From NCBI GenBank assembly GCA_028753945.1, contig JAPNXP010000002.1, forward strand, positions 9,982,001 to 10,046,000: DNA of 64,000 bases, in the 5' to 3' direction. Positions 4,311-64,000 of the stretch are shown here, in pieces; within the stretch, counting starts at the first letter, position 1, and each line of letters opens with the position of its first letter. Below the pieces are notes generated by a model that was not told where the DNA came from, did not search any database, and was given only the letters and a program-made list of their open reading frames with translations. A program made the translations under genes and the position numbers. This DNA is from Hexactinellida sp. DTS-2022. Lineage: Eukaryota; Porifera; Hexactinellida.

Positions 4311-4419
4311 TAAGCTTGTTTATCTTTGGATTAGTAACGTACCAGAAAATTATTATAATTTTCAAACAATATTTCGTGATTATCAGATCAGCAAATTATA
4401 ACAAATTATGATGTCACAC

Positions 4420-5115
4420 TCACCGTTGACCAAAAAGCTGGGTGTATTTCAGGTTGCAGTATACCATTGAATTTCCGAAAAAATCAATAAAATATCAATC
4501 CTAATCAATTTTGATTTTATTGCATTTTCGACCTCTATGGTTACTTCTAATCACTCTCACGAATCTTCTAGGTAAAATACAACTTTTCTTTCAAGTTATA
4601 GACTATTATGTCACCGTCCCCTGAAGTTGAAGTACACGATCGAACACTAAAAATCGAGAAAATATCAACCCTAATCAATTTTGATTTTATTGCATTTCCG
4701 ACATCTATGGTTACTTCTGATCACTCACACATTAAATTTCTAGGTGAAATACAAATTAAATTTCAAGTTATGGACTCTTATGTGACCATCACTTTATGTT
4801 ACAGTACACGATCGAACACTGAAAAAATTCGAAAATATCAACCCTAATCAATGTTCCTTATATTGCATTTTCCGAATCTATGTTTACCTCTGTGCACTCT
4901 CACGAAATTACTAGGTGAAATACAGATTGAATTTCAAGTTATAGACCCTTATGTCACCATCACTCAGGTTGCTTGTACATGATTGAACACTGAAATATAC
5001 GATAAAATATCGAAACAAAATCAATTTAGATTATATTGCATTTTCGGAATCTATGTTTACCTCTGAGAACTCTATCGAAATTGCTAGGAAGGCTATAATT
5101 AAGTTTTTTCAATAA
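4420..5115. repeat. Tandem repeat, ~172-bp unit, about four copies
   Basis: The word ATTGCATTT recurs at about 4519, 4689, 4862 and 5035, giving steps of 170-173 bp. Each unit also carries CACGATCGAACACT, ATCTATGGTTACTTCT-like text and a TCAAGTTATGGACTCTTATG-like block. The units have diverged. Phrases such as GCAGTATACCAT are shared with the TTAA-flanked family B elements at 39.1 and 49.4 kb, so the array may derive from part of that family. A small open frame inside it is not credible as a gene. Confidence 0.8.
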
Positions 5116-6475: not shown

Positions 6476-6479
6476 TGGG

Positions 6480-6850
6480 ATCTCCAAACTAGTTTCAATA
6501 ATCCAATAAAAATTGAGCATATTTGGAATAATCCAATAAAACTTGAGTATATTTGCAATAATTTAATAAAAATGGGGTATATTTTCAATGCAGTCGAAAT
6601 CGGGATTTTTTGCCACTGTTTTTTTTGCCTCCTTGTTTCTACTTGTTTCTTCATAACCTCATAGGACTGTATAATGTTAAATACGGGGGTTTTTGCGTAT
6701 CATGTCTTTTTGCCTCTTTTTCCATGCACTTAGGGTGGCAAAAAACACCGATTTCGACTGTAATCCAATAAAACTGGAGTATATTCACAAATCAGTAGAG
6801 TATTGTTGAGTATATTTGGAAACTTTGAAAAAACTGAGTATTTTAGAATT
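6480..6850. repeat. ~31-bp tandem repeat interrupted by an insertion
   Basis: Units such as AATAATCCAATAAAA followed by a TGAGTATATTTG-like tail repeat before 6590 and resume after 6761. The array is split by the inverted-repeat element at 6591-6760, which suggests that element inserted into the array. The minus-strand open frame over the array is an artefact of the repeat. Confidence 0.7.
6591..6760. mobile_element. 170-bp miniature element with ~27-bp inverted ends
   Basis: The left end starts CAGTCGAAATCGGGATTTTT and the right end is its near-perfect inverse (AAAAAACACCGATTTCGACTG). The pairing covers 6591-6617 and 6734-6760 with few mismatches. It interrupts a tandem array, which marks the borders well. 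I could not define a clear target-site duplication, so the superfamily is open. Confidence 0.7.
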
Positions 6851-16725: not shown

Positions 16726-16729
16726 GTCC

Positions 16730-17565
16730 TGCTAAAATATGTAATAGCTACTACCAGATTCGAAATATGTTATGGATTGTACTATTTTACCCCTGACAAA
16801 ATATGTATTACCTACTACCAGATTCAAAATAAGTCTTGGAATTGTATTATTTTACCCCAGCAAAAATATGTAATACCCACTACCAGATTCAAAATATGTA
16901 ATGGATTGTACTATTTAGATCTGCCAAAATATGTAATACCCACTACAAGATTTCAAAATATGTAATGGAATGACAATTTACCCCTGCTAAAATATCTAAT
17001 ACGTAATACCAGAATCAAAACGTTTTGCGGATTGTACTATTTATCCCTGCCAAAATATTATATTACCTACTACCAGTTTCAAAATATGTAATGGATTGTA
17101 CTATTTTACCACTGCCCAAATATGTAATACCTACTCCAAGATTCAAAATATCTAATGGATTGTACTATTTTACCCCTGCCAAAATATGTAATAGTTACTA
17201 GTACTACCACATTCAAAATATGTAATGGATTGTACTATTTTACCCCTGACAAAATATGTATTACCTACTACCAGATTCAAAATATGTAATGGATTGTACT
17301 ATTTACCCTTGCCAAAAGATGTAATAGTTACTAGTACCTCCACATTCAAAATATATAATGGATTGTACTATTTTACCCCTGCCAAAATATGCATTACCTA
17401 GTACCAGATTCAAAATATGTAATGGATTGTACTATTTACCCCTGCCAAAATATGTAATAGTAACTACCAGATTCAAAATATGTAATGGATTGTGCTATTT
17501 TACCCCTGGCAAAATATGTAATACCTACTACCAGATTCAAAAGATGTTTTTGGTTGTGCTTATAT
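16730..17565. repeat. Satellite, ~62-bp unit, about 13 copies
   Basis: Each unit reads roughly TGGATTGTACTATTTTACCC, CTGCCAAAATATGTAATACC, TACTACCAGATTCAAAATATG. Some units carry TAGTTACTAGTA insertions and some lack a T in the run, so period varies between about 60 and 66 bp. Short open frames here are repeats translated and not genes. Confidence 0.9.
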
Positions 17566-21792: not shown

Positions 21793-23040
21793 GGTGAAAA
21801 ATGTATTAGCGGTATGGGTGGTTTTAGCGGCTTTGTAGATATTGAAGTGTAATTCTCCAATCTGCTCTGTAATTGCATAACTAAGCTTAAAATGCATACA
21901 GCATATCTAAGTCCAAACTATTTTTCGAGTAGCAATAAATTCTTTAGGAAATGCCTCCCCATAGGGATAATACTGTTTTATTAGAATTCACTGAATTAAT
22001 TCTTGTAAAGTATAGTCGATATAGCTCCAAAAATTTGTATGATTGATCAGTACTATTAGCACTACATTTGCTTAGCTCACCAGACGCCTATCCCAAGTTT
22101 AACCAATTCTTAACTTACGAATCCTAGAATTCGTCAAAATGGAGGCCAGAAAGTGGTATTTTTGCTCCTTGCTTGGTCTCTACTCATACACTAATCGTTT
22201 GTTTGCTTCAATGAGCTTGCAAAATGATCATTATATTATTAAGAACTATATCTGAATTTTTGAAAGCAATCCCTTATGAACTATATTAGATAAAATTCGG
22301 GATATGTCAAAAAAACTACAATTGAGTAATCGAAGGCTGAAGTTTTTTGATTGTGAAATGCATATGTCTATTAAATTTGTCCGTATTACAAACAGATTTA
22401 GTTTAAATATACTAGATAAGTTTCATACTATATACTAAATATGTATTGAAACATCATAGTAAACAAACTACTTGATTAAATCGTATTCTATGCAAGTTTC
22501 TGTCGTATTAATGGAGTCCGCTTTCTTTTGGGACATCATTATCAGTGATTAAATCATGGCTTACGTAGTGATTAATGCTCTAATATGTATAATAAGTCTA
22601 TACTAGTTGGGATACCGTATGAAAAAACTAATATATATGACAATTGAGTTGAATAATATAATATAGTCAATTAATCTGTTGATGATGCATACAAAAATTA
22701 AAAAATATGCAGATCAGAATTTCTAGCCCATTATCAACTGGTTTTGGCAATATATGCTAATCATTGAGATATTTGTGCATATTAATGTTAGTTTATATAC
22801 ATAAAGTATATAAGTGCAAGATAAGGTACATATAAAACCAAGGAATGTCAATTGGGATAATAAAAAGAAACATCATCAACAATGACGTCACCAAATTGAC
22901 ATTTTGAAGACTTTGTAGAATATTTTTTCAAAAAAATTCACATCTCACATAATTTAATGATATATTAGCTTCATTTCACAGAATAAACTCGCATTACAAT
23001 TTTGTCACTAAAAGAACAAAAATCTCACCCGAAGCATCCT
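21793..23040. other. AT-rich DNA ending in a TTAA-type repeat piece
   Basis: About 21785-21935 is an inverted copy of 60380-60530. The segment 22860-23039 ends CACCCGAAGCATCC followed by TTAA (23040-23043), the inverse of the GGATGCTTCGGGTGA start seen at 50423, and shares the TGACGTCA-containing interior. It is therefore one end of the third TTAA family and lies directly before the Helitron gene, probably cutting off its N-terminus. Confidence 0.6.
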
Positions 23041-23077
23041 TAACGATAATATAATCAACGAAAATTCTTTCGGTGCA

Positions 23078-24049
23078 ATGGAATTTATTTGTCCACTTTG
23101 TGGCGCGAAGTTTTGGGAGAGCGAAAAGCTTACCAGTAGCACTAAGAATTGCAACAAGTTCCCCCTCTGTTGTGGACAGGGGAAGGTGGTTCTACCCCCT
23201 TTAGTATCACCGCCTGAGATGCTACTGCATCTGCTGACTACTTCTGACAAGCGAGGACGAGAGTTCAGAGATAAAATTCGAGCCTACAACTCAGCTCTGG
23301 CCTTTGCTTCGCTAGGAGTAAACCTCGATAAGGAACTTGCTAGCGCGAGACGTGGAGTGTACACCTTCCGTATCCAGGGAGTTGTACACCATTATATCGG
23401 ACAGCTGACACCGAGAGAGGGAGAGGCTCCCTCCTTTGCCCAGATATACATCCATGATGGGACAGCTGAGGGCGAGATAGAAAACCGCCAGCGGCATCTG
23501 GGAGAGGCATCTCTGCCAGAACTGAAAGCACTACAGGCGCTAATGCACGAGGTCAATCCATATGTGCAGTACTTCAGACACGGAATAGAGCTAATGAGAG
23601 CGCAAGGAGGAACTGACGTTAGGATGATCATCCGAGCTGATGGTGTCCCAGATCCCAGACGCTATAACGCCCCTGCTGCCCCAGAGGTAGCCGTTATCAT
23701 GCCCGGAGACGGGTATTCAGAAGGCGTAGCCAGCAGAGACATAGTGCTACATGCACGTACAGGGGGTTTACAGCGTATAACCGAGTGCAATTGCGCTTAT
23801 GATTCTTTGCATTATGTACTTTTGTTCCCCTCAGGAGATAATGGCTGGCATCTGAAAATCCCTCACAGCAGAGGGAAAGGAGATGTGACTGCATTGGAGT
23901 ATTACTCTTCCCGTCTGATGGTGAGAAGTGATTTGAGCTATCTACACATGTTTGGCAGACTCTTTCATCAGTACTTGGTGGATATGTTTGCTAAAGTGGA
24001 GCAACAGCGACTGAACTATATTAAGTGCAATCAGCAAAGATTAGAGTAG
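23078..24049 (+). pseudogene. Helitron Rep/helicase protein, N-terminal part
   Basis: The 323-codon frame has FICPLCGAKFW and CCGQGKV zinc-binding pairs followed by the standard animal Helitron N-terminal domain (SALAFASLGV, FRIQGVVHHYIGQLTP, FAQIYIHDG, HYVLLFPSGDNGWHL, LFHQYLVDMFAKVEQQRLNYIK). Coding similarity begins slightly upstream of the ATG (SFGAM), so the ATG is not the original start; the preceding DNA is an unrelated TTAA-type repeat. Near 24036-24040 the frame breaks: after KCNQQ the expected KIRVDLYSGL is in the next frame, indicating a one-base deletion or similar small change. The rest of the protein continues at 24025-28032. Confidence 0.85.
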
Positions 24050-27000
24050 ATCTATACAGTGGCCTTGCTGATGCTATTTCTGCAGGCGATTCTAATCCTA
24101 GAGACTTGGGACGTAAAGTGATATTGCCTTCTTCCTTCACAGGTAGTCCTCGACAAATGTTTGAGTTATACCAGGACAGTATGTCTATAGTCAGGAAATA
24201 TGGTAAGCCAGACTTATTCATTACATTTACATGCAATCCTAAATGGGAGGAGATATCCTCTGCTCTTATAGGAAACCAAAAAGCGACCGATCGTCCTGAT
24301 TTAATTGTTAGAGTATTTAAGATGAAATTGAAAGAATTACTTAATGATATCTGTAACAAACACGTGTTAGGTAAACCGTTGGCGCATGTTTATACAATAG
24401 AATTCCAAAAACGGGGCCTCCCCCATGCACACACTTTGGTGATTCTATGTCAGAGCGATAAACCTAGAGAACCATCAGACTGTGACAAAATTGTATGTGC
24501 GGAAATTCCCGACCCAATCCGTAATCCCAGGCTTCACGATATTGTTAAGCGTTGTATGATGCATAGTCCGTGTGGCTCTATAAGGAGGAACGCTCCTTGC
24601 ATGCGTGATGGTAAATGCACGAAAAAATATCCAAAAGCTTTTGCTGAATGTACTACAACAGGCAACGATAGCTATCCTATATACCAACGTCGTGATAACA
24701 AACGAACTGTACAAGTAAATGGTGTTGATTTAGACAATCGTTCGGTTGTTCCATACAATCCTTATTTACTTCTGAAATACAATGCGCATATTAATGTTGA
24801 GATTTGCAGTACAGTTAGTGCAGTTAAATATCTATACAAATACGTGTACAAGGGTCATGATAGAGCCATTGTAGAGTTCCATACTGCTGACAGTAGTGAA
24901 AGTAGTAAGACTAAGAACGTAAATGAAATTGTAAACTATCTAGAAGCTCGATACGTGTCTGCTACTGAAGCTTGCTATCGTCTCTTTGCATATGATCTCC
25001 ACGCCAATTTTCCACATGTGATGAGACTAGCTTTGCACCTGGAAGATCAGCAGCCTGTAGTGTTTGCTGAAAGTGCTTCTATAGAAGATGTCCTCAGTAG
25101 GCAGAAACACACTACCCTCACTGGGTGGTTTGTTGCTAATCAAAAATTTGCGAGTGCAAGGGAACTTACTTATACAAATTTTCCCGATAAATTTGTGTGG
25201 GATAAGACTGATCGTGAATGGAAGGAGCGGGTTAAAGGGCATGGCACTGTGATAGGCCGTGTCTATTCAGCTCATCCAGGTGACGGTGACCGTTATTTCT
25301 TAAGAATGCTTCTCAATCATGTCACGGGCTGTACCAGTTTTCAGGATATCCGCACTCTCTCTGATGGCACCGTGTGTGATACCTTTAAGGAAGCAGCCCG
25401 TAGACGAGGCCTGTTGGAGGATGATCAGGAATCTGATGACTGCTTAACAGCAGCTGCCATAAGTGAAGTACCAACACAGCTACGCCAACTGTTTGTGACT
25501 ATTCTTTTGTTCAACGAGCCATCTGAACCACTAGCTTTGTGGAATAAGCATAAAGTCTCCCTGTCTGAGGAATATTTATTTAAAGCTAGAGTATTAGCTC
25601 CCAATCTCGAATTGAACGAGCACTTGACTAACAAGGCATTAATAGATATTCAGTATCGACTAGAACAACAGGATAAATCACTATCAGATTTTCCTGGAAT
25701 GCCACTTCCGTCTCTTGCCAAGAGTCCCTATGATCAACCTAGCATCATTCGATATGAAATGGATTATAATGTCACTGAACATTTAACTGTTGCTGAGGAA
25801 AATATCCGGGGGCTTAACTCTGATCAAACTGACATATTTGAATGCATAATGGAGGCAATCAATGATCCAATGATTGCCCAGAGAGCATTTTTTATTGATG
25901 GACCCGGAGGTACTGGCAAAACCTTTCTTTACAACACAATATTAGCTAAAGTCCGATCACAGGGTCAGATTGCACTAGCCATGGCTTCTTCTGGGATAGC
26001 AGCTCTCCTGCTGCAAGGCGGGAGGACTGTTCATTCCAGGCTAAAGATTCCAATTCCTGTGAATGAGTTATCCGTGTGTAACATTTCTAAACAGAGTGCC
26101 TTAGCTAAACTAATACAATCTGCCAAGTTATTAGTATGGGATGAAGCCCCAATGATACATAGGCATGCTGCTGAGTGTATAGATCGGAGTTTGTGAGACC
26201 TTTGTTCGTGTGACCAACCTTTTGGTGGAAAGGTTATCGTATTTGGAGGTGACTTTCGTCAAATTCTACCAGTAATTAGGCACGGAACTAGATCAGAAGT
26301 TGTATCTGCCTGTATAAATAGGTCACCACTTTGGCGTTGTGTTAAAGTTATGAAGTTAACGATCAACATGCGTCTTCAGCGATTATCTTCTCAGGATTCT
26401 GTTGAAGTGAGCGAATTCTCAGACTTTTTGCTAAGAGTAGGTGATGGTACTGAACCTGAAAACGAAGATAATATGGTTCATATAAATGAGAAATTTATAG
26501 TACGTGGTGAAACTTTCGCAGATTTGGCCACAACTATCTACTCTGATATTAAGGAAAATTATCAAAATCGTGATTATATCACTTCCCGCATAATTATGTG
26601 TCCTAAGAACGACACAACAGATCAAATCAATGAGTTTGTAATGAACCAAATACCCGGTGAGGCTAAAGTATTATTGAGTGCGGATTCTGTAGATTCTAAT
26701 CAGGCTGCCATGTATCCAACTGAGTTTTTAAATTCCCTTACGCTTGCTAGCTTACCTCCGCATCGCCTCTACCTTAAGAAATACGCCTCAGTAATACTTT
26801 TGCGTAGTCTAGATCCCACTCAAGGGATGTGTAATGGCTCTCGCTTAACAATTATTGAAATGTCAAGCCATGTTATTGATGCTGAAATTGCAACTGGCAC
26901 ACATCGTGGTAAACGAGTGTTCATTCCTCGCATAGTGATGATACCTTCTGAGACAGACTTCCCGTTTGTTCTCAGGCGAAAACAATTCCCAATTCGTCCT

Positions 27001-28032
27001 GCATTTTGTATTACTATTAACAAAGGTCAGGGCCAGAGTCTTAATTCAGTTGGTATATTTTTACCTACTCCGGAGGCTATATTCAGTCATGGACAATTAT
27101 ATGTTGCTCTTAGCAGAGTACAGAATCCTCGAGGCTTGAAAGTAATGGTTTGTGGAGGATCTTACTCTGCCTCCGGTGGAGTTTCGGTAAGGAATGTAGT
27201 TTATAAGGAGGTATTTCAATATCATCTGGGAAACATTTCTCCCTCCAACCAAAACTCTGGATATTGTTCCCCAATGGATTTGTCATTCGAGAATGCATTT
27301 TCTGATTCTGAGCCAGACTCGGTTCCAGGTAATACAGAAAAAGAGGGAAGTTTGCCTATCTCTCAAGTTCAACAAACTGAATTGATAGAATCTCTAACAG
27401 GTTCTGTTAACCAATTTTCCCTACTTATGCGTAACCATATAGCAATGACTCTTGATATGGAAATACAACCAATATTATCCATCCGAAATAATGAAATGGT
27501 TATAGTTGATAGCACTTTAAAAAATTACTACGCATCGCTTGAAGCAAGGCTATCACATTTGTTTGGTCACAATTTTGAATTATGCCCTGTAACTGGAGAT
27601 GGTAATTGTCTTTACCGATCCTTAGCGCATATTATTTTTGGTACAGAGGCAATATATGAACACTTAAAATTTCAATTGATTCGTCATTTTCGAAACAGCC
27701 CTCTACACTGTTATAATGTAATGAAAATGTTACATTATAGCTGTGAAGAGGATTTGAACAATCATTTAGACCTCATAAGCAAACCAAATGAATGGGGTAC
27801 TGATGTAGTATTAGCTACATTGGGTTCTCTAGCGGAGATAGATGTATTAGTAATCAATGCTACTCACACTATTCCTAATATGTGGAGAGTAGACACTATC
27901 TATGCTCATGACACATTGTCATCTACAACACACAGTAATCCTGTGTTCAGCGGCCAGAAACTTGGTGTAGTGCTGCACCGATTACACAATGTCGAAGAGC
28001 TCTATCACTTCGATCCATTTTATTATAAGTAG
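24025..28032 (+). pseudogene. Helitron Rep endonuclease, helicase and OTU protease (one nonsense mutation)
   Basis: One frame runs from about 24037 to 28032, broken only by TGA at 26194-26196 in DRSL-stop-DLCSC, where family members have Arg; a CGA to TGA change explains it. Rep motifs are FITFTCNP (about 24217), the two-His metal site GLPHAH (about 24415) and KYLYKYVYKG with its paired Tyr (about 24826). The helicase has Walker A GPGGTGKT (about 25900), Walker B VWDEAP (about 26133), GDFRQILPV, TINKGQGQSL and YVALSRV. A C-terminal OTU domain has GDGNCLYRSL (Asp/Cys) at about 27596 and YHFDPF (His) at about 28004, so its catalytic residues are kept. Helitrons move by rolling-circle replication; OTU is a cysteine protease family that often removes ubiquitin. 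I could not place the TC/CTRR ends. Confidence 0.9.
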
Positions 28033-49425: not shown

Positions 49426-50289
49426 GGTCCAGGTATACTCTACAAAATCCCAAATTTCGAAAAAATCCCAAACTATTTAAAATGTCTTTTTTATTGCATT
49501 TTCGGATTGTGTGGATACCCATGTGGACTCTCAGGAATTTTCTAAGAAAAATTCCAATTATTTCTCCAGTTTGACTCACTTCGAGTTTAGAAAAATATTG
49601 GGGTTCTGGTGTTGGTGGCCGGTTGCAGTATACCATAGAAACTTGATAATTTCGGGACATTGCCACATATAGGTTTGATCTTATATTTGGATAGAACAGC
49701 ATATATCGCATCTTAATTTCAAACCTTATGGAAAATATTGAAAACTTTCAATGATACAGACTTTTTAGTGTCATCTACCTAAGCCACTTCCATAGGGGAC
49801 ACTTTTTTTCAAACCCCGGTTTCTCCAAACACAATTATTGCCATTGCGGAAGTCATATTATGACTCATATACCACCTAGAAACAAATTCTCAGCGGATTT
49901 GGACAGCTCTCAATTAGTTCTATCATATGAGTGTAGCGATTTCATTTGTGACTTTTCTTTTTCATTTTATTTAATCTATTGATGATGAAAAAAGTGATGT
50001 CCACATTTATTGATGAAAAATTTGACTCATAAGTGATTAAAAGAAATCTTGCACTCATATGATAGTTTAGAAGTATCTCCATGCAATGCAATAACAATCT
50101 ACTCTTAATCATTAACATGAAAAAACTCATCCGTTCCTCAAAATACGATTTTATAGAAGAAAAAATTTCACTGATTTACCTGGATCGAATATTATTGCAT
50201 TTTCGCTATCTAGAAGATGAAGTAAATCCGCTGTAAAATTAATTCGGGTAAATATATTTGGTAGAAGTGCTCTAGAGTATACCTGAACC
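49426..50289. mobile_element. TTAA-flanked element, family B, copy 3
   Basis: An 864-bp block starting GGTCCAGGTATACTCTA and ending TAGAGTATACCTGAACC between TTAA at 49422-49425 and 50290-50293. It is the inverse of copy 1 through most of its length, so full-length copies lie here in both orientations. Confidence 0.9.
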
Positions 50290-50293
50290 TTAA

Positions 50294-52785
50294 TGCTGGT
50301 CACTAGATTAATTCAAACCTAATATTTGGCTCTCGGAAGAAAAAGGACCCCTGCTTTAGAAATAAGATAAATTCAATCTGATACTCCTGAAATACTCTAG
50401 ATAAACCACACTATCATATTAAGGATGCTTCGGGTGAAATTTTAGGTTTTTTTGTGACAAAATTGAAATGCGAGTATATACTGTGAAATGAAGCTAATAT
50501 ATCATAAAATTATGTGAGAAGTGAAATCTTTTGAAAAAATATTCTGCAAAGCCTTCAAAACGTATATTTGGTGACGTCATTATTGATGATTCAGCTTTTT
50601 TAAAGATCGCACGTTTTTTAATTCATAAATCTGTATTATTTATAGAGATAATAAGGAAACATTGTCAGATTGAGCAAAATATACACCTATTCTGTCGCCG
50701 GAGGCTTGATAAATAAATATTGGGACGAAAAGCAAAAAATAAATTATTGAGAACGTAGAATAATTATAGTAGACATAGTTGAAGCAATGTTGTGAATTTG
50801 AACATTCTAGAACAAGTAGAATATATTTTCCAATAAATATGAATAGTGTTATATAGGATAGACGCTAATATTCTATATTTAAAATATTCAATCTTCAGAC
50901 AAAGAATTTACTTTCACAATGAAATTACAATATTTCTAAATGCTAATTACAATGTCAGACCACAGGAGTAGGAAAGCTAAATATATACTCAATAGAAGTT
51001 GCCCATAGTAATGAAAATATTGATTCCCAGGACACCGTTAAAACTAAACATAAACAGTATTGGTTCAGATATTTTCAGTATACAATTGTTAGCCAGTAGT
51101 TAGCATTTTATCTTATTTCTCTTTACAATAATTATTATTTCTACATTTTTAGTAGACTTCATAGTCTAGGACTTAATGGTATTCCGGACATCTATTTGTA
51201 CTTTTCTATGGTTAAAATCTATAGCACAAGCATAGTCTACTCAAATATGCTAAATAGCTCAAATAAATGATGTATCTAGAACATATATTAGGACTAAAAA
51301 CATTGATATAAGTGATTTATTGAGATTTTTTTAGAATGACGTTTTAGACCTCCATGGGTGGTAACATAGTTATTTTTAGTATGGATTCATATTGAATTTT
51401 ATTATACTGACTTCATTAAGCATATTCAAGTAGATTAGACTTTGTTCTAACTTTTAGATAGGTGGGACTTAATTTAAGATTTCTGCTTTGCCATTTTTTG
51501 AGGATTTTCGTCAGGTTGTCTAACTTTTGAACGATTTTTGCAATATTTGAACTTTAAACATATATATCTAGTTTAGAAATTTGAAATTGAAAATTCGGGG
51601 TGATCAATCGATTCAAATACACAATAAAAATATGTAAAACAAATTTCAAACCTCAATCTACTATATTGGGGTCTCTGCGATCAACCCCGTGTCGTCACTT
51701 TTGTAAATACAATATACTGAGAAATAACGTTTCAAAGTATTAATAAATTAGTTATTTCCGTGTGGATAGTGATATTATCTTTATCAGTTATCGGATAGGC
51801 GTCAAAATGGATAATTGATATGACTAGCAAGTTAGAGCTAAGCTCTAGCTTCCATTTATATTTCAAGATTAATGGTCACATCACTTCAATGACACCACCA
51901 TATATGGGCATATGAATTTATAGGATTGTAACCATTTCGAAAATAGTCTCAAAAGTTCTTTCAATGATTTGGAAATGGGATATTGATGTAATTAGATGGT
52001 TAGAGCTAAGCTCTAGGTTTTCTATTTTAGTAAATAGAAATTTTGCAGCGTCATCAAAAATGGGCACATTAAATGCCCATATTTGGATTATCTTGAAAAC
52101 GGTGAATGTCAGCGTCACGAAATGTATAATTGACTGATAGGAAGTCGGGTATAGCGAGTATTTTGAGATGTAATACATGATTCTAGCTGCTCGGTTGTCT
52201 GAGATAGGAAATTGACAAAAAAATCGTACCCTCGAATGAGATGATGGGCCATAAAGTTTCAAATTTTCACTTTTTAATTATTTTTTTGATCAAATGTTGA
52301 TTATTTTCATCAGAGAACACTTGGATAGAGTAATGGAATGACTAATCTTACCAATGTTGAGAAATACATACAGTTAGAATGGTTTGAAAAGGTGAAACCA
52401 ATGTTCCGTTCTACAAATTAGCTCATATCTTTGAAAGTGCGATTGGGAAATATTCAAAACTTTGTATAAACAATAAATATGGCCCTTCCGTATTACCGAG
52501 CATAAATAAAAAATTTGTGTGAAGATGTGTTTTTTGGGTAAATTTACGAATATTCTAATGTCGGGTATACCGTTAAGTATTAGAACTATTTTTATTTAAA
52601 TTCCCAGATCAAAAGAAATCTCATCATCTTTGAGAAATCAAGCCGATGACTTATCGCTTATCTAAAGCTATTACATCTTGCAGAAAGATCTCCGCCATTC
52701 TTGGTGTAAATTGTTCGACCGTGTAATACATCCTTTAAACGTTTAGAGAAACAGGATCAACAACTCACATACCGAGGGCTGGTAG
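50294..52785. other. AT-rich DNA with TTAA-type end and palindrome repeat
   Basis: TTAA at 50419-50422 followed by GGATGCTTCGGGTGAAAT starts a family C-like piece with TGACGTCAT inside, ending indistinctly. At 51830-52080 there are two TTAGAGCTAAGCTCT palindromes about 165 bp apart with TATATGGGCAT and GCCCATATTTGG, matching the pair at 17.79-18.04 kb. No gene is supportable before the retroelement. Confidence 0.6.
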
Positions 52786-52819
52786 ACTAGTTCGTAGTTA
52801 CGATAATTGTATTCTATAG
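52786..52819. repeat. Left 34-bp direct repeat of the retroelement
   Basis: It matches 58750-58783 at 33 of 34 bases. The Gag ATG follows three bases later, so a promoter, if internal, would have to lie in this repeat or the Gag start. Confidence 0.85.
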
Positions 52820-52822
52820 TTC

Positions 52823-55800
52823 ATGGCTACTCCATTTGTTCCTGGTCACGTCGGCCCTGCCGATCGAACTTATCCTTATCCGCGTACTGACGAGATTGCT
52901 CCTTATTTGCCCGGACATCCTAGCTTCTTAGATCTAAAAGAACGAAAGGCTGCAAATGGACAACCACCTATTTACGATAACGAGGATGCTACTGGCCCTA
53001 CAGTGGCGAACATGCCTCGAGGATTATTTGGTGCTTATGGAAGACAAGCTCTTCTCGCCACTCGCAAATGTCATACCTGGGACAACTTCAAGCCAGAGGA
53101 GTTCGGATTCCCTAATGACACATTCTATGAGCTGGATGCAATCCTGGCAGTTACCAGATGGACAGAGGAGCACTTCGCAGGATACTTCGGACTCCCCCGA
53201 AGACGCGCTGTCAGAGTCCTCCTTCGTGCCTATGATCAACTTTTCGTCGAACGTCAGGGAAATCTTGTCCGCGATGAACGCGCTAGATCGGATGTTATGC
53301 GCATCATGTACATCGACGGAAACAAGACATACTATCGTCGAGTGTCCATGCTCCGGAGCTTCTCCAACGCTCTCGAGGGAGCCAAAACTTCTGGTGACAT
53401 CGCCTTGTATCTGGCATACGTCGCCAGCAGAATTGAGATTGATCCTGATCCAACAGCTCACATTCTGCGAACCGCCTCAGAAGGATCAGCGGACTCTGGA
53501 CACATGGAAACACAACCCAATGTCCACTCTCTCTCCCTCAATACACGAAAGGTTGCCTTGGGCGGAAGACACCGTCCAAGAAGTAGTAATAGCAGAGCAC
53601 TGTAGACTCAATCCACTAGTAGCAGATTTTGAGCCCGGCCATGTTTCACAAGACATCACGTGGAACATGAGTGACCTCACCGAAAAACTCGATATCTTAC
53701 GCACCGCTGATACTCTCCCAGACGCCTTAGGAGAGTTCCTCTCAGACCTCACCAACGCTCTCCCTAAATCCTTCGCTACGGTTGAGAGAAACAACAGTCC
53801 GTCATGTCTTCGATTCTCCTCCTTACCGGCCATGCATTCACAACCTAACGTTGCTGAATTACAATCGACGGATTATATGGATTACGACGAAGATACTAAA
53901 CGATATGGCTTTGATCCTGGATTAATTCGAAAGATCCTACGCGACCAGTTCACTCTTAGACGAACTATGGATCGACGACCTACTACCTTCCTCTCCTTCC
54001 TCAATGACCGCTCTAAGACTACCAATCTCCGCATTCTTCGACGTTCGGAAGAAAATCTTAAAATCAAACACTATGAGATATTCTCGATCGCGCACCGCAT
54101 TGATAGAATAGACAGATCTATCAAGTATATCGAGAAATGGGTCACAGCAGTCGGAATCGACACACAGGACGATGCTTCAGAATATAATCAAATGCGGGCA
54201 ATTATTACTCGTAGCTGGATTACTGATTCGGAAAAAGAGACACTCAACCGCCGGTACCCTACGAAGAACAGGGGCGAGTTCCGCAAAGAAGTTGCTGCTA
54301 AACTTCTCTTCAATGTACGCCAGCTTAAGGAGAATGAGACTGCACATTCCGTATTCCTCTGTAGTCAGATGGCTACGCTTCTCAGTGGTATCCAAAGACA
54401 ATGGTTCACAGAGATCTTTGAGGAGATAAACGCCTTCCCAGAGGAGAAGTCTCTAGGCTTAGAGTACTTCGTCAATGCTGCTACCTCCATACAGAAGTAC
54501 ACGCTCACTAATAATCTTCATAATATTCACGTGATGAACAACGGCGATATCCTCGCCAACGCCGAGGCCAAGCGCGTTATCACTAAGCTTAGAGATATAA
54601 CGGTACAGGCACTCATCAATACAGCCTCACTCAGTACCGCCGTTCAGGCACATAATATCCTAGACGTAGAGCTTCCGGAATGCCTTCGTCTTCAAAGCGA
54701 CAAGATCCGATGTGCTACTTTTCGTTTCCTTCCTGCACGACAACAACCATGGCTCATGAATCGTGAAGTAATTGACATCCTTCGAGTAGAACGTAAATAC
54801 GTCAAGATGCGAGAGGGCTCTGCAATCAGTCAACGAGAGTGGGCTATTATAATTTTTCCTACTCAGCTACACAACATTCTCGCAGGAATCCAGGAGGCTG
54901 TCAGTCAAAACTGGGAGCGCTCCTATCTTCGCAAAGCTGTCAAAGAGGACGAACGCAGAAAATGTGCGTATATCTTCCAGGAAGTCAACATACAGCTTGG
55001 CAACAAAGAACGGTTATGCCCCTACCATCGTCTTGCAGATGGTAACAATCATAAGAATATCCATTGCAATTATGCACCCTGCAACCTTCACAGCTGGAAA
55101 TACTATGAACTCAGTAACGAGGCTGAAGGCACAGTATCCATAATCCCAGGCGCTAACATTCACTTGAACGGCGACTGCAAGCTACAACAACGTCATGCAC
55201 GACAGCTAAAGGAGTCCCGACACACGTATCTGTATCACGATCAGGACCTCAACATTGTCTCCCAGGATGGAAAGATCTTCGAGGCTGCTGTACTTACTGA
55301 TGCAGGCACGAGAGACATTCCTGGATACAACTCACGACGCAATGATCTGATTACTTTTCGGCGAATCAAAACAGACAGGGGTCCAGTAGGTGACAGTTGT
55401 CGCATCGCTACTACCGCTCGTTCCAACCGGGGACGCAGTAACTCACGCAGTCCAGCTAGATCTCCTGCACGAGGACGATCTCCCCTTCCTGGACGAAGAG
55501 GTAGACCCAGATCTAGGTCCCCCTTCAGTCAGCGCAGTAGCTACAAACGCAGAAGTCGGAGCCGAAGCTCCTCCATACACTCCCTACGACCAGATCTGTC
55601 GCACCGGCAGGTCACGTAGCCCTAGCTCTTCCTGGGGTACCTCCGTTTCTTCAGGAAGCACACTCTTCTCACGCGGCGGACGTGGATACCGATCCAGACA
55701 CCAGAATCGTAGACGCAAATTCGGGCCATCCTGGTCCACGAATGATATAGTCCGCGCTTCTAGATCTTCCTCAAGATCTAGCTCTAGATCCCCCTCCACT

Positions 55801-56193
55801 GGGAGATCTAAATCTAGAACCCGTTCTGGACCTCGACAACCCTTCGGAAACCGCGGACGCAGCCGCCCGCACACAGCACCGACCGGTCGCTCCCCCAAAC
55901 GTACCATGTCTCCAAGACGGATCATGACTAGAGCTACCCGTACACCTCCAAAGTTTCAAACTCGCGGACGCTCACGATCACCTGCTTTGGAGCGACCTAG
56001 ACCTAGAGTGGGACGAAACCCTCTCATTTGCCATAACTGCTCCGGTGAAGGATACCGAAGTACTGGATGCAGCAGGCGACCCACTAAGTGTGGAAACTGT
56101 GGATCTGTTGGCCACCAAAGACGCTTCTGTATGAACAATGAGCGTCGCTCTACCAACATCGGCCGTCAAGGGCCAAACGCTCGCCGCACTTAA
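52823..56193 (+). CDS. Gag-like protein with RS-rich region and zinc knuckles (frame changes)
   Basis: Coding starts at ATG 52823 and passes through three frames: 52823 to about 53600, then to about 55570, then to TAA at 56191-56193; both steps are +1. About 1,120 codons in all. The first part has no family I know (FGLPRRRAVRVLLRAYDQL). The middle is long and helical with a Cys/His cluster (CPYHRLADGNNHKNIHC). The end is Arg/Ser-rich (RSRSPFSQRSS, SRSSSRSSSRSPS), then CHNCSGEGYRSTGC, a knuckle with Tyr in place of His, and CGNCGSVGHQRRFC, a perfect CX2CX4HX4C knuckle. This layout suits an RNA-binding nucleocapsid-type protein. The frame steps could be mutations, sequencing indels or programmed shifts; two shifts in the same direction are notable. 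Confidence 0.65.
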
Positions 56194-56214
56194 ACAGTGA
56201 CAGTTTAAGTGCGG
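56184..56214 (+). promoter_or_regulatory. Perfect hairpin over the Gag stop codon
   Basis: CCGCACTTAAAC (56184-56195) and GTTTAAGTGCGG (56203-56214) form a 12-bp perfect stem with a 7-base loop. The Gag TAA (56191-56193) lies in the left arm. The reverse transcriptase frame is open through this point, one frame back. Such a structure could control how ribosomes pass from Gag to the polymerase; that is an inference. Confidence 0.55.
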
Positions 56215-56249
56215 ACCATTCTCTGTCACAAGTACCACTAGAGGCGCTT

Positions 56250-58367
56250 GTGCATCGGCCCGACGAGATAATACCACTCGTCGGGCCTGCAGTACACACT
56301 TGGGATGCCATTTGTGACCCAACTCTCCACGGTAGATGGTATAGTGCCACTCCCAGTGCCATACGGGAGATGGCCTTACAGACTGCGCTTGCCTATACTC
56401 ACGAACACCTTGATGAGTACCGTACCAGAGACCCAGAAAACTTACTGGACTCTGACGTCATGCTACAGTTATTATGGTTAGGCAGCGCATGTCATATTGA
56501 TGTCGGACGCAATCAGTTACCTACACGCAGTAAACTAATGCCAAGTTCACTTACACTCGGACTAACAAAACTCTTCTATTATGCAAGAAAGAGAATGGGC
56601 CCTCATATTCGCAAAACGGATAAAGGAATGGGCCTCGCTAAACAGTTCAAGGCTTGGCTTCATACAGAACGCGCTAAAGTCATCCTTGACCCACTCAAAT
56701 ATCACTTCTGTACATCACCTTCTAAATATACTCGTCAGAACGCTTCCCGCATATATTTAATGCAGAAGATTCATAAAAACAGATTTCCGGTGCCAGGACG
56801 AATCCTTGTACAGGGCTTCTCCTACATGGAGGCCAGTGGTAAGTTTATTAGCTTCTTTGGCTATGCTATCCTCAAGGAACTTACAACTGAACTACATTTC
56901 CACGACTGCCGAGTAGAATACGAGTACAAAGGCTTAGACATGGCCCTATCTACTGTCTATAGTATGCTCGACACCTCAGGACCACATACCCTTACAGAAC
57001 TTGACGTTGAGGCATGTTATCCTTCACTTCAACATCACAACGTAGACACCGCTTTCAAGTTTTTCTTTCAGTATGTTTCGGAACATTTACTTCCGCTCTA
57101 CTTCAATGTCTGGGCACGGTCCCTATACCTACTTAATCACACAATGATCCAAGTCGAGGGTATCGTTTACCAACAGACCTCAGGACTTAGTCAGGGCAGC
57201 GCCGCTGCGCCCTTTCTTGCAGACTTCACACTCTTTCGCCTGGACTTACTCTTCCGACGACAAAATCCAGGCGCCAAAGCTGGACGCTACTTAGACGATA
57301 TTTTGCTTATTATACCCAGCACCATGGATACTCCTCAAATTATTGCAAACCTACAAGCAATCTACCAGGACGATAATCTTCTCATTACCATACATCATGC
57401 TGGAACCAATGGACGTGCCGCATGGTTGGGGTTCGATATATCACCAAACGCTGAATATACAGTTCATATAAAGCCTACATGGGTAAACCTGTTCGCACCG
57501 CTATATGATTCAATTTCTCCTAGACTACACTTTGGCTATCTAATCATCATGGCTATTCGCTTTTTCCTCTTCACTTCTACTACCACCCTATTCCAAGCTA
57601 TCTGGAAACGGTTCAGTGATACCCTACCGGCCCGAGGCTATCCAATAGAGGTCACTACCATGATCCTCGAAAAGATACGCTACGACAAGGGCTTCGACGC
57701 CCGTCCAGACGCCGGTCACAACCATCTTAGATTACAATTCGGATATTGGTTGCGTCAAACAAAGACTTGGAGACAAATACACAAGTCACAATCACCTTAC
57801 AGATCCCTTTGGGAAAATACTCTAAACAGTGCCGAACTACTTCACATAGATCAAGTTCTATCTCGTGACTTTCTTGGGACCAGTCCCACTATACGACCTA
57901 GTCCCACATGGACAATTACCACCGTATTTCCTACAGTTCCTACACCTGCAATCGGACCAGGAAGCGTTCCAGCCAAACCAGTTCCATCACCGGATGGAAT
58001 CAGTAACCCTAGCACAGCGTCCATCTACTCAGCACACTCAGTAGATTCCTTAGAGTCTGACCTACAAGGTCCTGACTGGTGGCGAGCAAATACTCGCCTT
58101 TCCATAATGCCCGTAGATATGACCTGGCATGACCTAATAACTACACAGTTCGCCGGGCGAATTCCTGGCGGTAACTCTAACAACGACAGTCCGCTAGAAC
58201 ATCCACTCAGAGTGGGAGCGCCTATTAGTGGCACCAGCTCCGACCTACTGTTAGCCTCACCTCTCTCTACCATACTCAATGAAAAGAGCACATACCTTCC
58301 CCTTCTACTGGAAGAGCCTTCAATGGAACAGCTCGAAGAACAAAAAGAAATCTTCAGGCTAGAATAA
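56250..58367 (+). CDS. Penelope-like reverse transcriptase
   Basis: The 705-codon frame has no ATG at its upstream limit: it is open through 56190 and into the Gag region, so translation probably comes by a -1 frame step or reinitiation. Motifs in order are IYLMQKIHKN (near residue 170, typical of Penelope-like enzymes), GRILVQGFS, LDVEACYPSL (motif A, near 252), GLSQGSAAAPFLADF (motif B, near 311), GRYLDDILLI (motif C, near 346) and WLGFDISP...HIKPTW (motif D/E), followed by a thumb with RFFLFTSTTTLF and ARGYP, another Penelope-like landmark. Both motif C aspartates are present and the frame is intact. The last ~170 residues are Pro/Ser/Thr-rich, and no GIY-YIG nuclease is present at either end. 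It copies RNA into DNA for retrotransposition. Confidence 0.8.
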   Translation: MHRPDEIIPLVGPAVHTWDAICDPTLHGRWYSATPSAIREMALQTALAYTHEHLDEYRTRDPENLLDSDVMLQLLWLGSACHIDVGRNQLPTRSKLMPSSLTLGLTKLFYYARKRMGPHIRKTDKGMGLAKQFKAWLHTERAKVILDPLKYHFCTSPSKYTRQNASRIYLMQKIHKNRFPVPGRILVQGFSYMEASGKFISFFGYAILKELTTELHFHDCRVEYEYKGLDMALSTVYSMLDTSGPHTLTELDVEACYPSLQHHNVDTAFKFFFQYVSEHLLPLYFNVWARSLYLLNHTMIQVEGIVYQQTSGLSQGSAAAPFLADFTLFRLDLLFRRQNPGAKAGRYLDDILLIIPSTMDTPQIIANLQAIYQDDNLLITIHHAGTNGRAAWLGFDISPNAEYTVHIKPTWVNLFAPLYDSISPRLHFGYLIIMAIRFFLFTSTTTLFQAIWKRFSDTLPARGYPIEVTTMILEKIRYDKGFDARPDAGHNHLRLQFGYWLRQTKTWRQIHKSQSPYRSLWENTLNSAELLHIDQVLSRDFLGTSPTIRPSPTWTITTVFPTVPTPAIGPGSVPAKPVPSPDGISNPSTASIYSAHSVDSLESDLQGPDWWRANTRLSIMPVDMTWHDLITTQFAGRIPGGNSNNDSPLEHPLRVGAPISGTSSDLLLASPLSTILNEKSTYLPLLLEEPSMEQLEEQKEIFRLE

Positions 58368-58749
58368 TCCCTTTAGCAGGGTGGCTTTATGACCACCAGT
58401 TGCTACCAAGCTACAGGCGTAGCTGGCTACCACAGGGCGATGCTACGCTATTCACAAACACACCATCTAGTATCGCCCTAACTACTACAGAAGTTAAATT
58501 CTTGCAACATGAAACACACGATCTGCAGAGACCCAGATCCAGAAATTACATGATGAAATCATGAATCTACACAGAGAAAGTGACGTCATTCTAAACTCAT
58601 AGCCCTTTCGACGGGCTGTATCAAGTCAAAACCGTCATACCTCACCTTATCCATGGTTCCAATCCACTTCTATTATTACATCCATGGTCCGGATACTCAT
58701 CTCTACTACCATAAATACTAGTCAAACGCTGTTTATGCTTAATGCTATT
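58368..58749 (+). other. 3' untranslated tail of the retroelement
   Basis: No coding. The first 80 bases are GC-richer with short inverted words (GGTGGC/GACCACC, GCTACC/GGTAGC-like) that could form hairpins, as expected in a 3' region recognised by a reverse transcriptase. Confidence 0.45.
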
Positions 58750-58783
58750 ACTAGTTCGTAGTTACGATTATTGTATTCTATAG
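58750..58783. repeat. Right 34-bp direct repeat of the retroelement
   Basis: It matches 52786-52819 with one difference. A C-run and the dispersed module TCACTTTAATACAATCC plus AC microsatellite follow directly, so the element lies beside or inside a copy of that module. Confidence 0.85.
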
Positions 58784-60530
58784 GCCCCCCCGTCACTTTA
58801 ATACAATCCGTACAAACACACAGACAAACTCACAAACACACAAACACACACACAACAATCGAGATTTAATAATATAGATATTTGCAATCAAAACTCTTTT
58901 GTAATCCTTTTTAGAAATTTTGTTAGTAACAAAATAATACTAATTCTATTAGCAAATGAAATTTATTCCATTACAGTATCACAATTAAATTATTGCTATA
59001 CATTTATAAATTGGTCATTCATGTGTTTAACACCTAATTATATTGAAAATAGGTCTTGAGAAAACAGGTGAGAAAAAATAACTAAGGTAGTAAGAATCTC
59101 ATGGTGGTAAGAATCTCATAGCAATTTGTCATCCATGGTCCTTGTAATCAAAGTAGTAAGAATCTCATGGTAGTAGAAATCTCATGCAACAGTACAAATA
59201 GCTTCACGAAATCAGATTCCCAGAGTTTCTATTCAAAGGGTAATACTCCTGTTATGGAGATATCTAAACCGAGATATTAGAAATTCAGAAGCTACTTATC
59301 AACAGCTAAATTGTGTAGTTATTGTATCGTGTTTAGTTGGTAACTTCCGTAACACATGATCCGTGCCCACCCAACCTGAAAGTTCAGTTTCGCATATGGC
59401 ACCAATTATATGCGTTTAGTATATTTACATATAGATCTAAGTCCCTCACTATGCATTATTGTATATACATATTTGAAATTTGATTATTTGAGATAAGTGA
59501 GATTTGGGTATGTTGAATTTAGTTAGAAATATCTCCAAACCAGTTTACTTTGAATACCGAAACTATTAATATACTGATAAGACATGTTAGATATGTATAT
59601 AATAATTTTAAAGAAATATTTGTTAGCAATTTCAATTATTGAAAAAACAGAATATATAGAATTTTATGTAATACAATATCAATTTGCCTCAAAATCCTAC
59701 GCTCTTGACTACGGTGGGATTTTGACCCGCACCATGGATACGCTATTATGATTTTAAATTGCTGGTTAAAGCCCCACGCAACAGGCCTCTGACCTCCTGG
59801 GATAGACTACTGAACCCCTATATTTTTATATTAAAATCCACTAGATTATTCTATTAGCTATATTTTCAAACCCTCTAGCTCATATAGTTTCCAAGTTACA
59901 GCAAGGTGTGTGAATATGGAACAAAATTACGAATCACTGTATTTACATTATTTGAGAGTTTTCTATTCACTTTCATTTCCTGGAAAATTGAGTAGTTATC
60001 AATGCGACGTCAGTACCAATATAGTTAGTACTAAATAGCTACAATACATAACAGAGCGTTTAATACGTATTTTATTGATACTTATTATTCGTATATCTTA
60101 CTTATTATATCGCGCTATTGGAATTGTAATGAACAACTTTCGTTTCAATCGATATTTTTTTGATGTTAATCGACCTTAGTATAGTCTGTATAGTATAAAT
60201 TTGATTACTTGCTAGCATCTTGTTGTATAATAAGATTTTAACATATACTATACAACTGAATTTACTTTGAAAACATCCCTTGTTGATCATATATTTAACT
60301 TAAAATACGTACTGATGGATAGCGTAAAATGTACATATGATACGTATTATACCTTATACGCGTATCAATCAACTTAATGCTACTCGAAAAATAGTTTGGA
60401 ATAAGACATGCTGTATACATTTTATGCTTAGTTATGCAATTACAGAGCAGATTGGAGAATTACACTTCAATATCTACAAAGACGCTAAAACCACCCATAC
60501 CGCTAATACATTTTTCAAGCTAAGTATCCT
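58784..60530. other. AC microsatellite and AT-rich DNA
   Basis: 58795-58875 is the module with an ACACAAACACAC run and CGAGATTTAATAATA. 59080-59190 has repeated GTAAGAATCTCATGG words. Near 59705 GGTGGGATTTTGACCC is a weak tRNA T-arm-like match on the minus strand. 60380-60530 is an inverted copy of 21785-21935. No gene is supportable. Confidence 0.55.
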
Positions 60531-60853
60531 TAAATTAAATTTGTTTTATTTATCAAATATTGAGCCACACATCAACAGGCAGTACCGTCCAGGCGGAGGA
60601 GCAGACTGTCCTCATAGTAAATTGATTGCCTTAGCCCACTTTGGTTTTTAACTAAAATTTACTTTAATTATTTAATATTGAGCCACACATCAACAGGCAA
60701 TACCGTCCAGGCGGAGGAGCAGAGTGTTCACTTAGTGTATTGCTTGTCTTTGCACACTTTGGTTTAACTAAAATTAGGTTGATTTATGTAATATTGAGCC
60801 AAACATCAACAGGCAGTACCGTCCAGCCGGAAGAGCAGAATGTTCACTTAGTG

Positions 60854-61176
60854 CAGGGATCGGCAATTATGAACACTATTACCCCATTCCAGTGCTCAGC
60901 ACATCACTGTTACCCCGAATCCAGAAACTAAATTGATAAACACAAAAACAAGCAGTTTCATTTATAGACGAGACAACAGAAGTAAACTATTGAATTTAAT
61001 TCTGTTCATAAGCAGGTATATAATGTCTAAAGTTGCACTTGCTACCCTTAATAATATCAGCACTGTGGCTGTATTTTGACAGTTGGAATCTTAAATCGCT
61101 TTCCGGACGGTCTCGTTACCTCCAGAAAACCTGAAATACCCCCAATGGGCCAGTTACCCCTAATTGCCAACCACTG
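60854..61176. mobile_element. hAT-type miniature element trapped in the satellite
   Basis: A 323-bp block starts CAGGGATCGGCAAT and ends ATTGCCAACCACTG (11 of 14 inverted matches), flanked by a perfect 8-bp duplication, ACTTAGTG (60846-60853, 61177-61184). Removing the block and one duplication restores a normal ~116-bp monomer. Confidence 0.9.
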
Positions 61177-62801
61177 ACTTAGTGTATTGCTTATCTTGGC
61201 AAAATTTGGTTAAACTAAAATTTATTTAATCTATTTAAAATAGAGCCACACATCAACAAAAACTACCGTCCAGGCGGAGGAAAACAGTGTTCACTTAGTG
61301 TATTGCTTGTCTTAGCACACTTTGGATTAATTTAAATTTCTTTAATATTTAATATTGGGCCACACATCAAAGGCACTACCGTCCAGGCGGAAGAGCAGAG
61401 TGTTCGCTTAATGTATTGCTTGTCTTAGCACACTTTGGTTTAACTTAAATTTGATTATTTATTTAATATAGAGTCACACATCAACAGACAGTATCGTCCA
61501 GGCGGAGGAGCAGACTGTCCTCATAGTAAATTGATTGCCTTAGCCCACTTTGGTTTAACTAAAATTTGTTGTATTTATTTAATATTGAGCCACACATCAA
61601 CATGCACTACCGTCCAGGCGGAAGAGCAGAGTGTTCGCTTAGTGTATAGCTTGTCTTAGCACACTTTGGTTTAACTTAAATTTGTTTTATTTATTAAATA
61701 TTGAGCCACACATCAACAGGCAACTACAGTCCAGGCGGAGGAGCAGAGTGTTCACTTAGAGTATTGTTTATCTTAGTACACTTTGGTTTAACTCAAAATT
61801 GATTATTTATTTAATATTGAGTCACACATCAACAGGCAGTACCGTCCAGGCGGAAGAGCAGAGTGTTCGCTTTGTGTATTTTTTGTCTTAGCACACTTTT
61901 GTTTAACTTTAATTTGATTATTTATTTAATATAGAGTCACACATCAACAGGCAGTACCGTCCAGGTGGAGGAGCAGACTGTCCTCATAGTAAATTGATTG
62001 CCTTAGCCCACTTTGGTTTAGCTAAAATTTGTTGTATTTATTTAATATTGAGCCACACATCAACAGGCACTACCGTCCAGGCGGAGGTGCAGAGTGTTCA
62101 CCTGGTGTATTGCTTGTCCTAGCACACTATTGTTTAACATAAATTTGTTTTATTTATTTAATATTGAGCCACACATCAATAGGAACTAACGTCCAGGAGG
62201 AGGAGCATAGTGTTCACTTAGAGTATTGTTTATCTTAGTACACTTTGGTTTAACTCAAAATTGATTATTTATTTAATATTGAGTCACACATCAACAGGCA
62301 GTACCGTCCAGGCGGAAGAGCAGAGTGTTCGCTTTGTGTATTTTTTGTCTTAGCACACTTTTGTTTAACTTTAATTTGATTATTTATTTAATATAGAGTC
62401 ACACATCAACAGGCAGTACCGTCCAGGTGGAGGAGCAGACTGTCCTCATAGTAAATTGATTGCCTTAGCCCACTTTGGTTTAGCTAAAATTTGTTGTATT
62501 TATTTAATATTGAGCCACACATCAACAGGCACTACCGTCCAGGCGGAGGTGCAGAGTGTTCACCTGGTGTATTGCTTGTCCTAGCACACTATTGTTTAAC
62601 ATAAATTTGTTTTATTTATTTAATATTGAGCCACACATCAATAGGAACTAACGTCCAGGAGGAGGAGCATAGTGTTCACTAAGTGTATTGCTTGTCTTTG
62701 CACACTTTGGTTTAACTAAAATTAGGTTGATTTATGTAATATTGAGCCAAACATCAACAGGCAGTACCGTCCAGCCGGAAGAGCAGAATGTTCACTTAGT
62801 G

Positions 62802-63124
62802 CAGGGATCGGCAATTATGAACACTATTACCCCATTCCAGTGCTCAGCACATCACTGTTACCCCGAATCCAGAAACTAAATTGATAAACACAAAAACAAG
62901 CAGTTTCATTTATAGACGAGACAACAGAAGTAAACTATTGAATTTAATTCTGTTCATAAGCAGGTATATAATGTCTAAAGTTGCACTTGCTACCCTTAAT
63001 AATATCAGCACTGTGGCTGTATTTTGACAGTTGGAATCTTAAATCGCTTTCCGGACGGTCTCGTTACCTCCAGAAAACCTGAAATACCCCCAATGGGCCA
63101 GTTACCCCTAATTGCCAACCACTG
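62802..63124. mobile_element. Second copy of the trapped hAT-type element
   Basis: It is the same element, at the same monomer position and with the same ACTTAGTG flanks, 1,948 bp downstream. It was copied by amplification of the array and did not insert separately. Confidence 0.9.
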
Positions 63125-64000
63125 ACTTAGTGTATTGCTTATCTTGGCAAAATTTGGTTAAACTAAAATTTATTTAATCTATTTAAAATAGAGCCACACA
63201 TCAACAAAAACTACCGTCCAGGCGGAGGAAAACAGTGTTCACTTAGTGTATTGCTTGTCTTAGCACACTTTGGATTAATTTAAATTTCTTTAATATTTAA
63301 TATTGGGCCACACATCAAAGGCACTACCGTCCAGGCGGAAGAGCAGAGTGTTCGCTTAATGTATTGCTTGTCTTAGCACACTTTGGTTTAACTTAAATTT
63401 GATTATTTATTTAATATAGAGTCACACATCAACAGACAGTATCGTCCAGGCGGAGGAGCAGACTGTCCTCATAGTAAATTGATTGCCTTAGCCCACTTTG
63501 GTTTAACTAAAATTTGTTGTATTTATTTAATATTGAGCCACACATCAACATGCACTACCGTCCAGGCGGAAGAGCAGAGTGTTCGCTTAGTGTATAGCTT
63601 GTCTTAGCACACTTTGGTTTAACTTAAATTTGTTTTATTTATTAAATATTGAGCCACACATCAACAGGCAACTACAGTCCAGGCGGAGGAGCAGAGTGTT
63701 CACTTAGAGTATTGTTTATCTTAGTACACTTTGGTTTAACTCAAAATTGATTATTTATTTAATATTGAGTCACACATCAACAGGCAGTACCGTCCAGGCG
63801 GAAGAGCAGAGTGTTCGCTTTGTGTATTTTTTGTCTTAGCACACTTTTGTTTAACTTTAATTTGATTATTTATTTAATATAGAGTCACACATCAACAGGC
63901 AGTACCGTCCAGGTGGAGGAGCAGACTGTCCTCATAGTAAATTGATTGCCTTAGCCCACTTTGGTTTAGCTAAAATTTGTTGTATTTATTTAATATTGAG

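Follow-up and report, generated by a model that had tools for sequence, protein, structure and literature searches.

Features and coding frames of the element

The stretch analysed here, called the window, comprises 64,000 nucleotides from Hexactinellida sp. DTS-2022 (G000; contig JAPNXP010000002.1, here C11, positions 9982001-10046000), and all coordinates without a contig name are window positions. At 52786-58783 it contains an element that is bounded by 34-bp direct repeats with one mismatch and that holds two genes, one for a long Gag-like protein and one for a reverse transcriptase (RT). We read it as a decayed retrotransposon, with an RT that probably belongs to the branch of Penelope-like elements and telomerase and with no recognisable endonuclease. 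The following parts were identified:

52786..52819, + strand: terminal direct repeat, left copy, 34 bp (repeat search)
52823..53560, + strand: N-terminal part of the Gag-like protein, frame 2; ATG at 52823, border approximate; third-position substitutions against L023, weaker than elsewhere
53560..55600, + strand: core and C/H-rich part of the Gag-like protein, frame 3; borders approximate; homologous frames in L021, L023, L025 and L059
55600..56193, + strand: RS-rich C-terminal part of the Gag-like protein, frame 1; stop at 56191-56193; in one frame with the core in L021 and L025
56029..56070, + strand: zinc-knuckle motif 1, C-X2-C-X4-Y-X4-C; the His is canonical in L025; below Pfam cut-offs
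56089..56130, + strand: zinc-knuckle motif 2, C-X2-C-X4-H-X4-C; incomplete in L025; below Pfam cut-offs
56142..58364, + strand: open frame of the RT, frame 3 (list of open frames, Pfam, protein searches)
56184..56214, + strand: gag-stop hairpin (stem 12 bp, loop 7 nt) with the gag stop in its 5' arm; the RT passes through it in the -1 frame
56592..57737, + strand: stretch of the RT (model residues 151-532) that was aligned with structures of telomerase and of other RTs
58355..58602, + strand: C-terminal tail of the RT outside frame 3, at first in frame 2 (until about 58512) and from there in frame 1 up to the stop at 58600-58602
58599..58619, + strand: second hairpin (stem 7 bp, loop 7 nt) with the RT stop in its 5' arm; letters nearly identical in L023
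58750..58783, + strand: terminal repeat, right copy, taken to be the element's true 3' end; L023 aligns through it

In pairwise alignments with four copies elsewhere in the genome (L021, L022, L023 and L025) substitutions concentrate on third codon positions, and the coding frame can therefore be followed along the element. It starts in frame 2, changes to frame 3 at about 53560 and to frame 1 at about 55600, is frame 3 again for the RT after the gag stop, and ends with the RT tail in frame 2 and then frame 1. The third-position signal stands out in the Gag core and the RT; it is less marked over the first 750 bases, the RS-rich stretch and the RT tail.

A preliminary description, made from the letters of this DNA, had reported about 1,120 codons upstream of the RT, with a CCHC knuckle and an RS-rich stretch at their end. 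The upstream region does encode a long protein that has an RS-rich stretch and two knuckle-shaped motifs; in the window copy, however, it is spread over three overlapping frames, and an uninterrupted frame of this size (1,126 codons) is shown in L025. A single 1,120-codon frame in the window copy is ruled out by the list of frames together with the codon-position substitutions. The same description had called a 705-codon RT intact. The frame is open for 741 codons from stop to stop, carries all five landmarks named there (KIHK, LDVEACYPSL, GLSQGS, YLDD and RGYP) and matches RVT_1 in Pfam (E 2.7e-10), but it is not intact, since the last 75 or so residues continue in two other frames up to 58602. 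L021 and L025 keep the C-terminal part of gag in the frame of the core. A separate translation of the window copy's RT tail resembles by eye the C-termini of the database relatives P0002-P0004 and P0006. Judged from these comparisons, the two frame changes in gag and the two in the RT tail are therefore damage of the window copy, or an assembly error, and the RT core is open. Apart from the four frames described, the longest further sense frame inside the element has 105 codons.

The Gag-like protein and its junction with the RT

In L025 gag forms one uninterrupted frame, which consists of an N-terminal part, a conserved core with a C/H-rich stretch, an RS-rich stretch, one CX2CX4HX4C motif and a second, incomplete motif. 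Motif reading finds this retroviral-type spacing in the proteins of both the window and L025; the zinc-knuckle models of Pfam match below their cut-offs only (E 0.06-0.54), so the knuckles rest on motif spacing. Searches with the core brought no significant Pfam, NCBIfam or PDB family match, the PDB profile search returning one match at chance level (E 0.55). Likewise, a protein search with an 893-codon Gag frame, the first fifth or so of which is out of frame, gave none at E <= 0.001 among 7,999 candidates. On sequence grounds we call the protein Gag-like for its place, its basic RS-rich tail and its knuckle motifs; a capsid is no part of the basis for this name.

The L025 copy lies at 3400-6780 of its locus (C6:2105399-2108779, minus strand), where gag is open over its 1,126 codons and the RT has a frameshift and breaks off near residue 211. 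This gag belongs to an array of recent duplication, whose long repeats are 98-99.8% alike and which also holds frames that we take to be PARP-like; a pyrimidine-rich tract with CAG at its end precedes the ATG of gag. The host may have put this Gag gene to use.

The RT follows gag in the -1 frame in the window, L021, L023 and L025, and is open for 12-32 codons upstream of the 3' arm of the gag-stop hairpin. The folding of this hairpin was reached by none of 200 shuffles in the window, L021 and L025 each and by seven of 200 in L023; for the broken hairpin of L022, 150 of 200 shuffles reached it. Around 4883-4937 of L022 the hairpin is lost, and gag and RT are read in one frame. In an alignment of five rows, two of them (L021 and L022) near-duplicates, 93.3% of the cells pair, with a maximum of 38.3% when the structure is slid along the alignment. 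Compensatory changes are present: both partners differ in three of the 12 stem pairs, in one sequence for each pair, a result that 6 of 500 shuffles match. Coding sequence in two frames runs through the hairpin and is itself a constraint on it. The hairpin at the RT stop (58599-58619), whose folding 3 of 200 shuffles reach, is almost unchanged in L023.

ORF2 (open reading frame 2, the RT) is offset by -1 from gag, whose stop codon falls within the 5' arm of a conserved hairpin; the RT would therefore probably be made by frameshifting or by stop-coupled reinitiation at the hairpin, at a lower level than Gag. A stop-codon hairpin that covaries makes such an expression switch directly testable.

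The RT, the ends and the copies

The assignment of the RT starts from its predicted structure. In a VIA-align comparison of the model the telomerases take rows 1-14 of 50 and are the most alike among these rows, in line with the Penelope-like RT of the preliminary description; the list excludes no family outside it, for example retroviral RTs. DKG, KIHK and an RGYP-like motif are presumably landmarks of Penelope RTs, which the element would share. The element had also been described as endonuclease-less, and this is supported: no endonuclease domain was found in the window frames scanned or in four RT relatives (P0002, P0003, P0004 and P0006). The same frames and relatives contain no match to GIY-YIG and no protease, RNase H, integrase or recombinase domain, the RT proteins scanned have no match to Telomerase_RBD, and the APE/RLE endonuclease of long interspersed nuclear elements (LINEs) is lacking from the frames scanned. 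A six-frame search of the genome (E <= 0.1) gave a single GIY-YIG match, in a 585-codon frame at L058 1459-3216 (C14:4795568 region, minus strand) that has no RT match.

Besides the element family, a small tree was limited to one telomerase (TERT) and to RTs of long terminal repeat (LTR) elements and LINEs sampled from the element's own genome. The sampled LTR and LINE RTs each form a clade (support 99 and 100, respectively), the split between them and the element family has a support of 82, the RT of the element lies outside the LINE clade, and a long branch leads from the element family to the other sampled RTs. Database relatives were sought among the 8,000 candidates that share most exact 5-residue words, a search that distant Penelope proteins may escape. 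It gave 14 proteins at E <= 10, 53-67% identical. The only organism named among them is the glass sponge Oopsacas minuta, which lends no support to an arthropod setting.

The 33-base core of the terminal repeat has only two matches in the genome with up to three mismatches, and no match at all was obtained in 100 shuffles. The alignment with L023 extends across the right repeat as far as its end, and the left repeat of the window is therefore a second copy of the 3' end; homology to L023 begins only near the counterpart of 52879, and by its sequence L023 looks like a 3'-anchored 5' truncation. A second tandem unit was not seen, the 34-bp repeat standing at both ends with its 3' copy common to L023. 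A target-site duplication was rejected as the origin of the repeat, since the 3' repeat is element sequence in L023 and a genome search that allowed up to three mismatches finds the core at no other place. The left flank reads as a Tc1/mariner-like repeat with a second copy at L062, and the right flank is the end of another repeat with 37 other matches among the 40 matches listed. Clean insertion into one target was rejected, as the joined flanks match these two different repeats, and no target duplication was seen at the flanks. Two different flanks would suit priming at a break; rearrangement is possible.

Genome searches with the RT and Gag (20 and 17 matches, both lower bounds) come down to eight places, six on C11 (10.04, 6.48, 5.758, 5.752, 5.17 and 4.07 Mb) and two on C6 (2.11 and 1.21 Mb). 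L021, L022 and L060 are about 98% alike over long stretches, and six insertions are therefore counted as independent. All six lie on two of 18 contigs, which make up about 19% of the genome; this clustering was spotted after the fact. The collection of copies yielded a 3' end shared with L023 and eight places; all eight lie inside contigs, which does not support a telomeric location. Both ends of C11 and C6 (L069-L072) carry the same satellite of about 210 bp, with no simple telomeric repeats in the bases read.

Nature of the element and its possible mobility

In the proposed mechanism Gag (ORF1) would coat the RNA of the element and build a ribonucleoprotein (RNP) or particle. Without a nuclease of its own, the RNP would probably prime on existing 3' ends at breaks; copying would start at the 3' end of the element, might stop early and so leave 5' truncations, and would leave no target duplication. 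The 34-bp repeat may be a tiny Penelope-style pseudo-LTR, formed where the 3' end of one unit joins onto the 5' end of the following one, or a short terminal repeat. For Penelope-like elements in general, PMC11167929 states that relatively little is known of how they move. In our judgement, the mobility of those that lack an endonuclease is the least known.

Several results weigh against this reading. The RT model is weak (mean pLDDT 44.2), and in Foldseek telomerases are intermixed with retron and group II RTs. The nearest named RTs by sequence are group II and other bacterial RTs: the PDB sequence search places GsI-IIC first (E 0.0043), the RT profile search Drt2 (E 0.049), with no telomerase among the matches listed, and the best NCBIfam model for P0002 is group_II_RT_mat (E 1.6e-7, far below its cut-off). 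Telomerase scores 4.1 bits against the RT sequence profile, compared with 2.3 for the best shuffle, which is not significant, and in the tree the sole telomerase joins the LTR side (support 60), apart from the element family. Membership among Penelope-like elements draws on a predicted structure, on missing domains and on presumed motifs. No hammerhead was matched in Rfam at E <= 5 in 50000-61000, where divergent or decayed motifs could escape. The complete 3' end is seen only in L023 and the 5' repeat only in the window copy, and the differing flanks could stem from later rearrangement. At the junction no classical slippery heptamer was seen by eye, and the number of further pair types in the hairpin is unexceptional (reached by 86 of 500 shuffles).

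We consider it unlikely, but worth weighing, that the element represents a separate retroelement order defined by its zinc-knuckle Gag, either sister to Penelope-like elements and telomerase or placed elsewhere among RTs. The RT profile found its own family alone (14 of 14 matches at E <= 10, all at least 53% identical), the branch to the other sampled RTs is long and the Gag core lacks a significant Pfam or PDB match; however, the word-based search may have missed distant Penelope proteins, and two-ORF Penelope elements without endonuclease, of 4-6 kb, are already on record in PMC6431247. A more elaborate proposal, which we regard as doubtful, is an order-level lineage near the split of Penelope-like elements and telomerase, with a true Gag particle, a stop-codon hairpin that sets the ratio of Gag to RT, no endonuclease, and the L025 gag (C6:2105402-2108779) captured by the host in the duplicated PARP-like array.

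The preliminary description noted a link to telomeres for the nuclease-less Athena and Coprina, and an Athena/Coprina-type element without endonuclease, attached to telomeres and with copies later internalised, would share its two-ORF plan, its size and its telomerase-like RT model. This we hold to be very unlikely, given eight places inside C11 and C6, the satellite at the ends of these contigs (the window lies in the interior of the 15.56-Mb C11) and neither a hammerhead match in 50000-61000 nor a TTAGGG pair in the window. Gag before RT, an overlapping -1 frame, zinc-knuckle motifs as in retroviruses and LTR elements, terminal direct repeats and the presence of HIV RT in Foldseek from row 31 downward would also be expected of an endogenous reverse-transcribing virus, or of an LTR, DIRS or LINE element stripped of its integration domain. 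Such an origin appears highly improbable: the sampled LTR and LINE RTs keep to their own clades, no protease, RNase H, integrase or recombinase was found in the frames scanned and no other sense frame beyond 105 codons inside the element, and the repeats have just 34 bp. The viral-library matches listed are mostly RNA-virus polymerases, and an IMG/VR scan gave 133 pattern matches, none of them confirmed.

Read as a decayed element of the Penelope-like and telomerase branch, it is closest in plan to Athena, Coprina and the bdelloid Terminons, which according to PMC6431247 share a telomerase-like RT, an RT protein without endonuclease, two ORFs and a size of 4-6 kb. It differs from them in its interior position and in that no hammerhead was found; its ORF1 of about 1,100 codons has an RS-rich stretch and knuckle motifs, the comparison leaving aside the knuckle content of ORF1 in Athena and Coprina. 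For Athena and the Terminons PMC5408684 describes extra ORFs as coiled-coil and enzymatic. Canonical Penelope and Poseidon elements, for which pseudo-LTRs and tandem order are described (PMC3846280 and PMC11167929), may share terminal repeats of tandem origin; unlike them, the element has no GIY-YIG match, a separate Gag gene and a repeat of just 34 bp. With LTR retrotransposons and retroviruses it shares the order of Gag and RT, the -1 overlap and the CX2CX4HX4C motifs, but no long LTRs were found. DIRS-like elements differ by a tyrosine recombinase, not found in the frames scanned, and by split repeats in place of the simple direct repeat seen here (no DIRS RT being compared). Telomerase, which shares ancestry with Penelope-like RTs according to PMC5718144, is the best neighbour of the RT core in the predicted structure; the element, in contrast, is repeated in the genome and has a Gag gene.

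Among the titles listed in literature searches, none describes this element and none concerns a Penelope element whose Gag has zinc knuckles, which is not a claim of absence from print. A relative that bears a Gag and is not telomeric would demonstrate that particle-type RNA packaging can be coupled to a telomerase-like RT. It would also contribute a lineage from an early branch of animals, one that seems isolated within the limits of the word-based search.

Elsewhere in the window, two open frames, of 349 codons at 9634-10683 and of 417 codons at 14266-15519, have no significant Pfam family, and a tandem array with a 64/133-bp period lies at 16728-17547. Helitron frames at 23012-28032 carry Helitron_like_N, a PIF1 helicase and a C-terminal OTU protease domain (Pfam). 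A satellite of about 116 bp occupies 60530-60853 and 61177-64000, reaching the end of the window.
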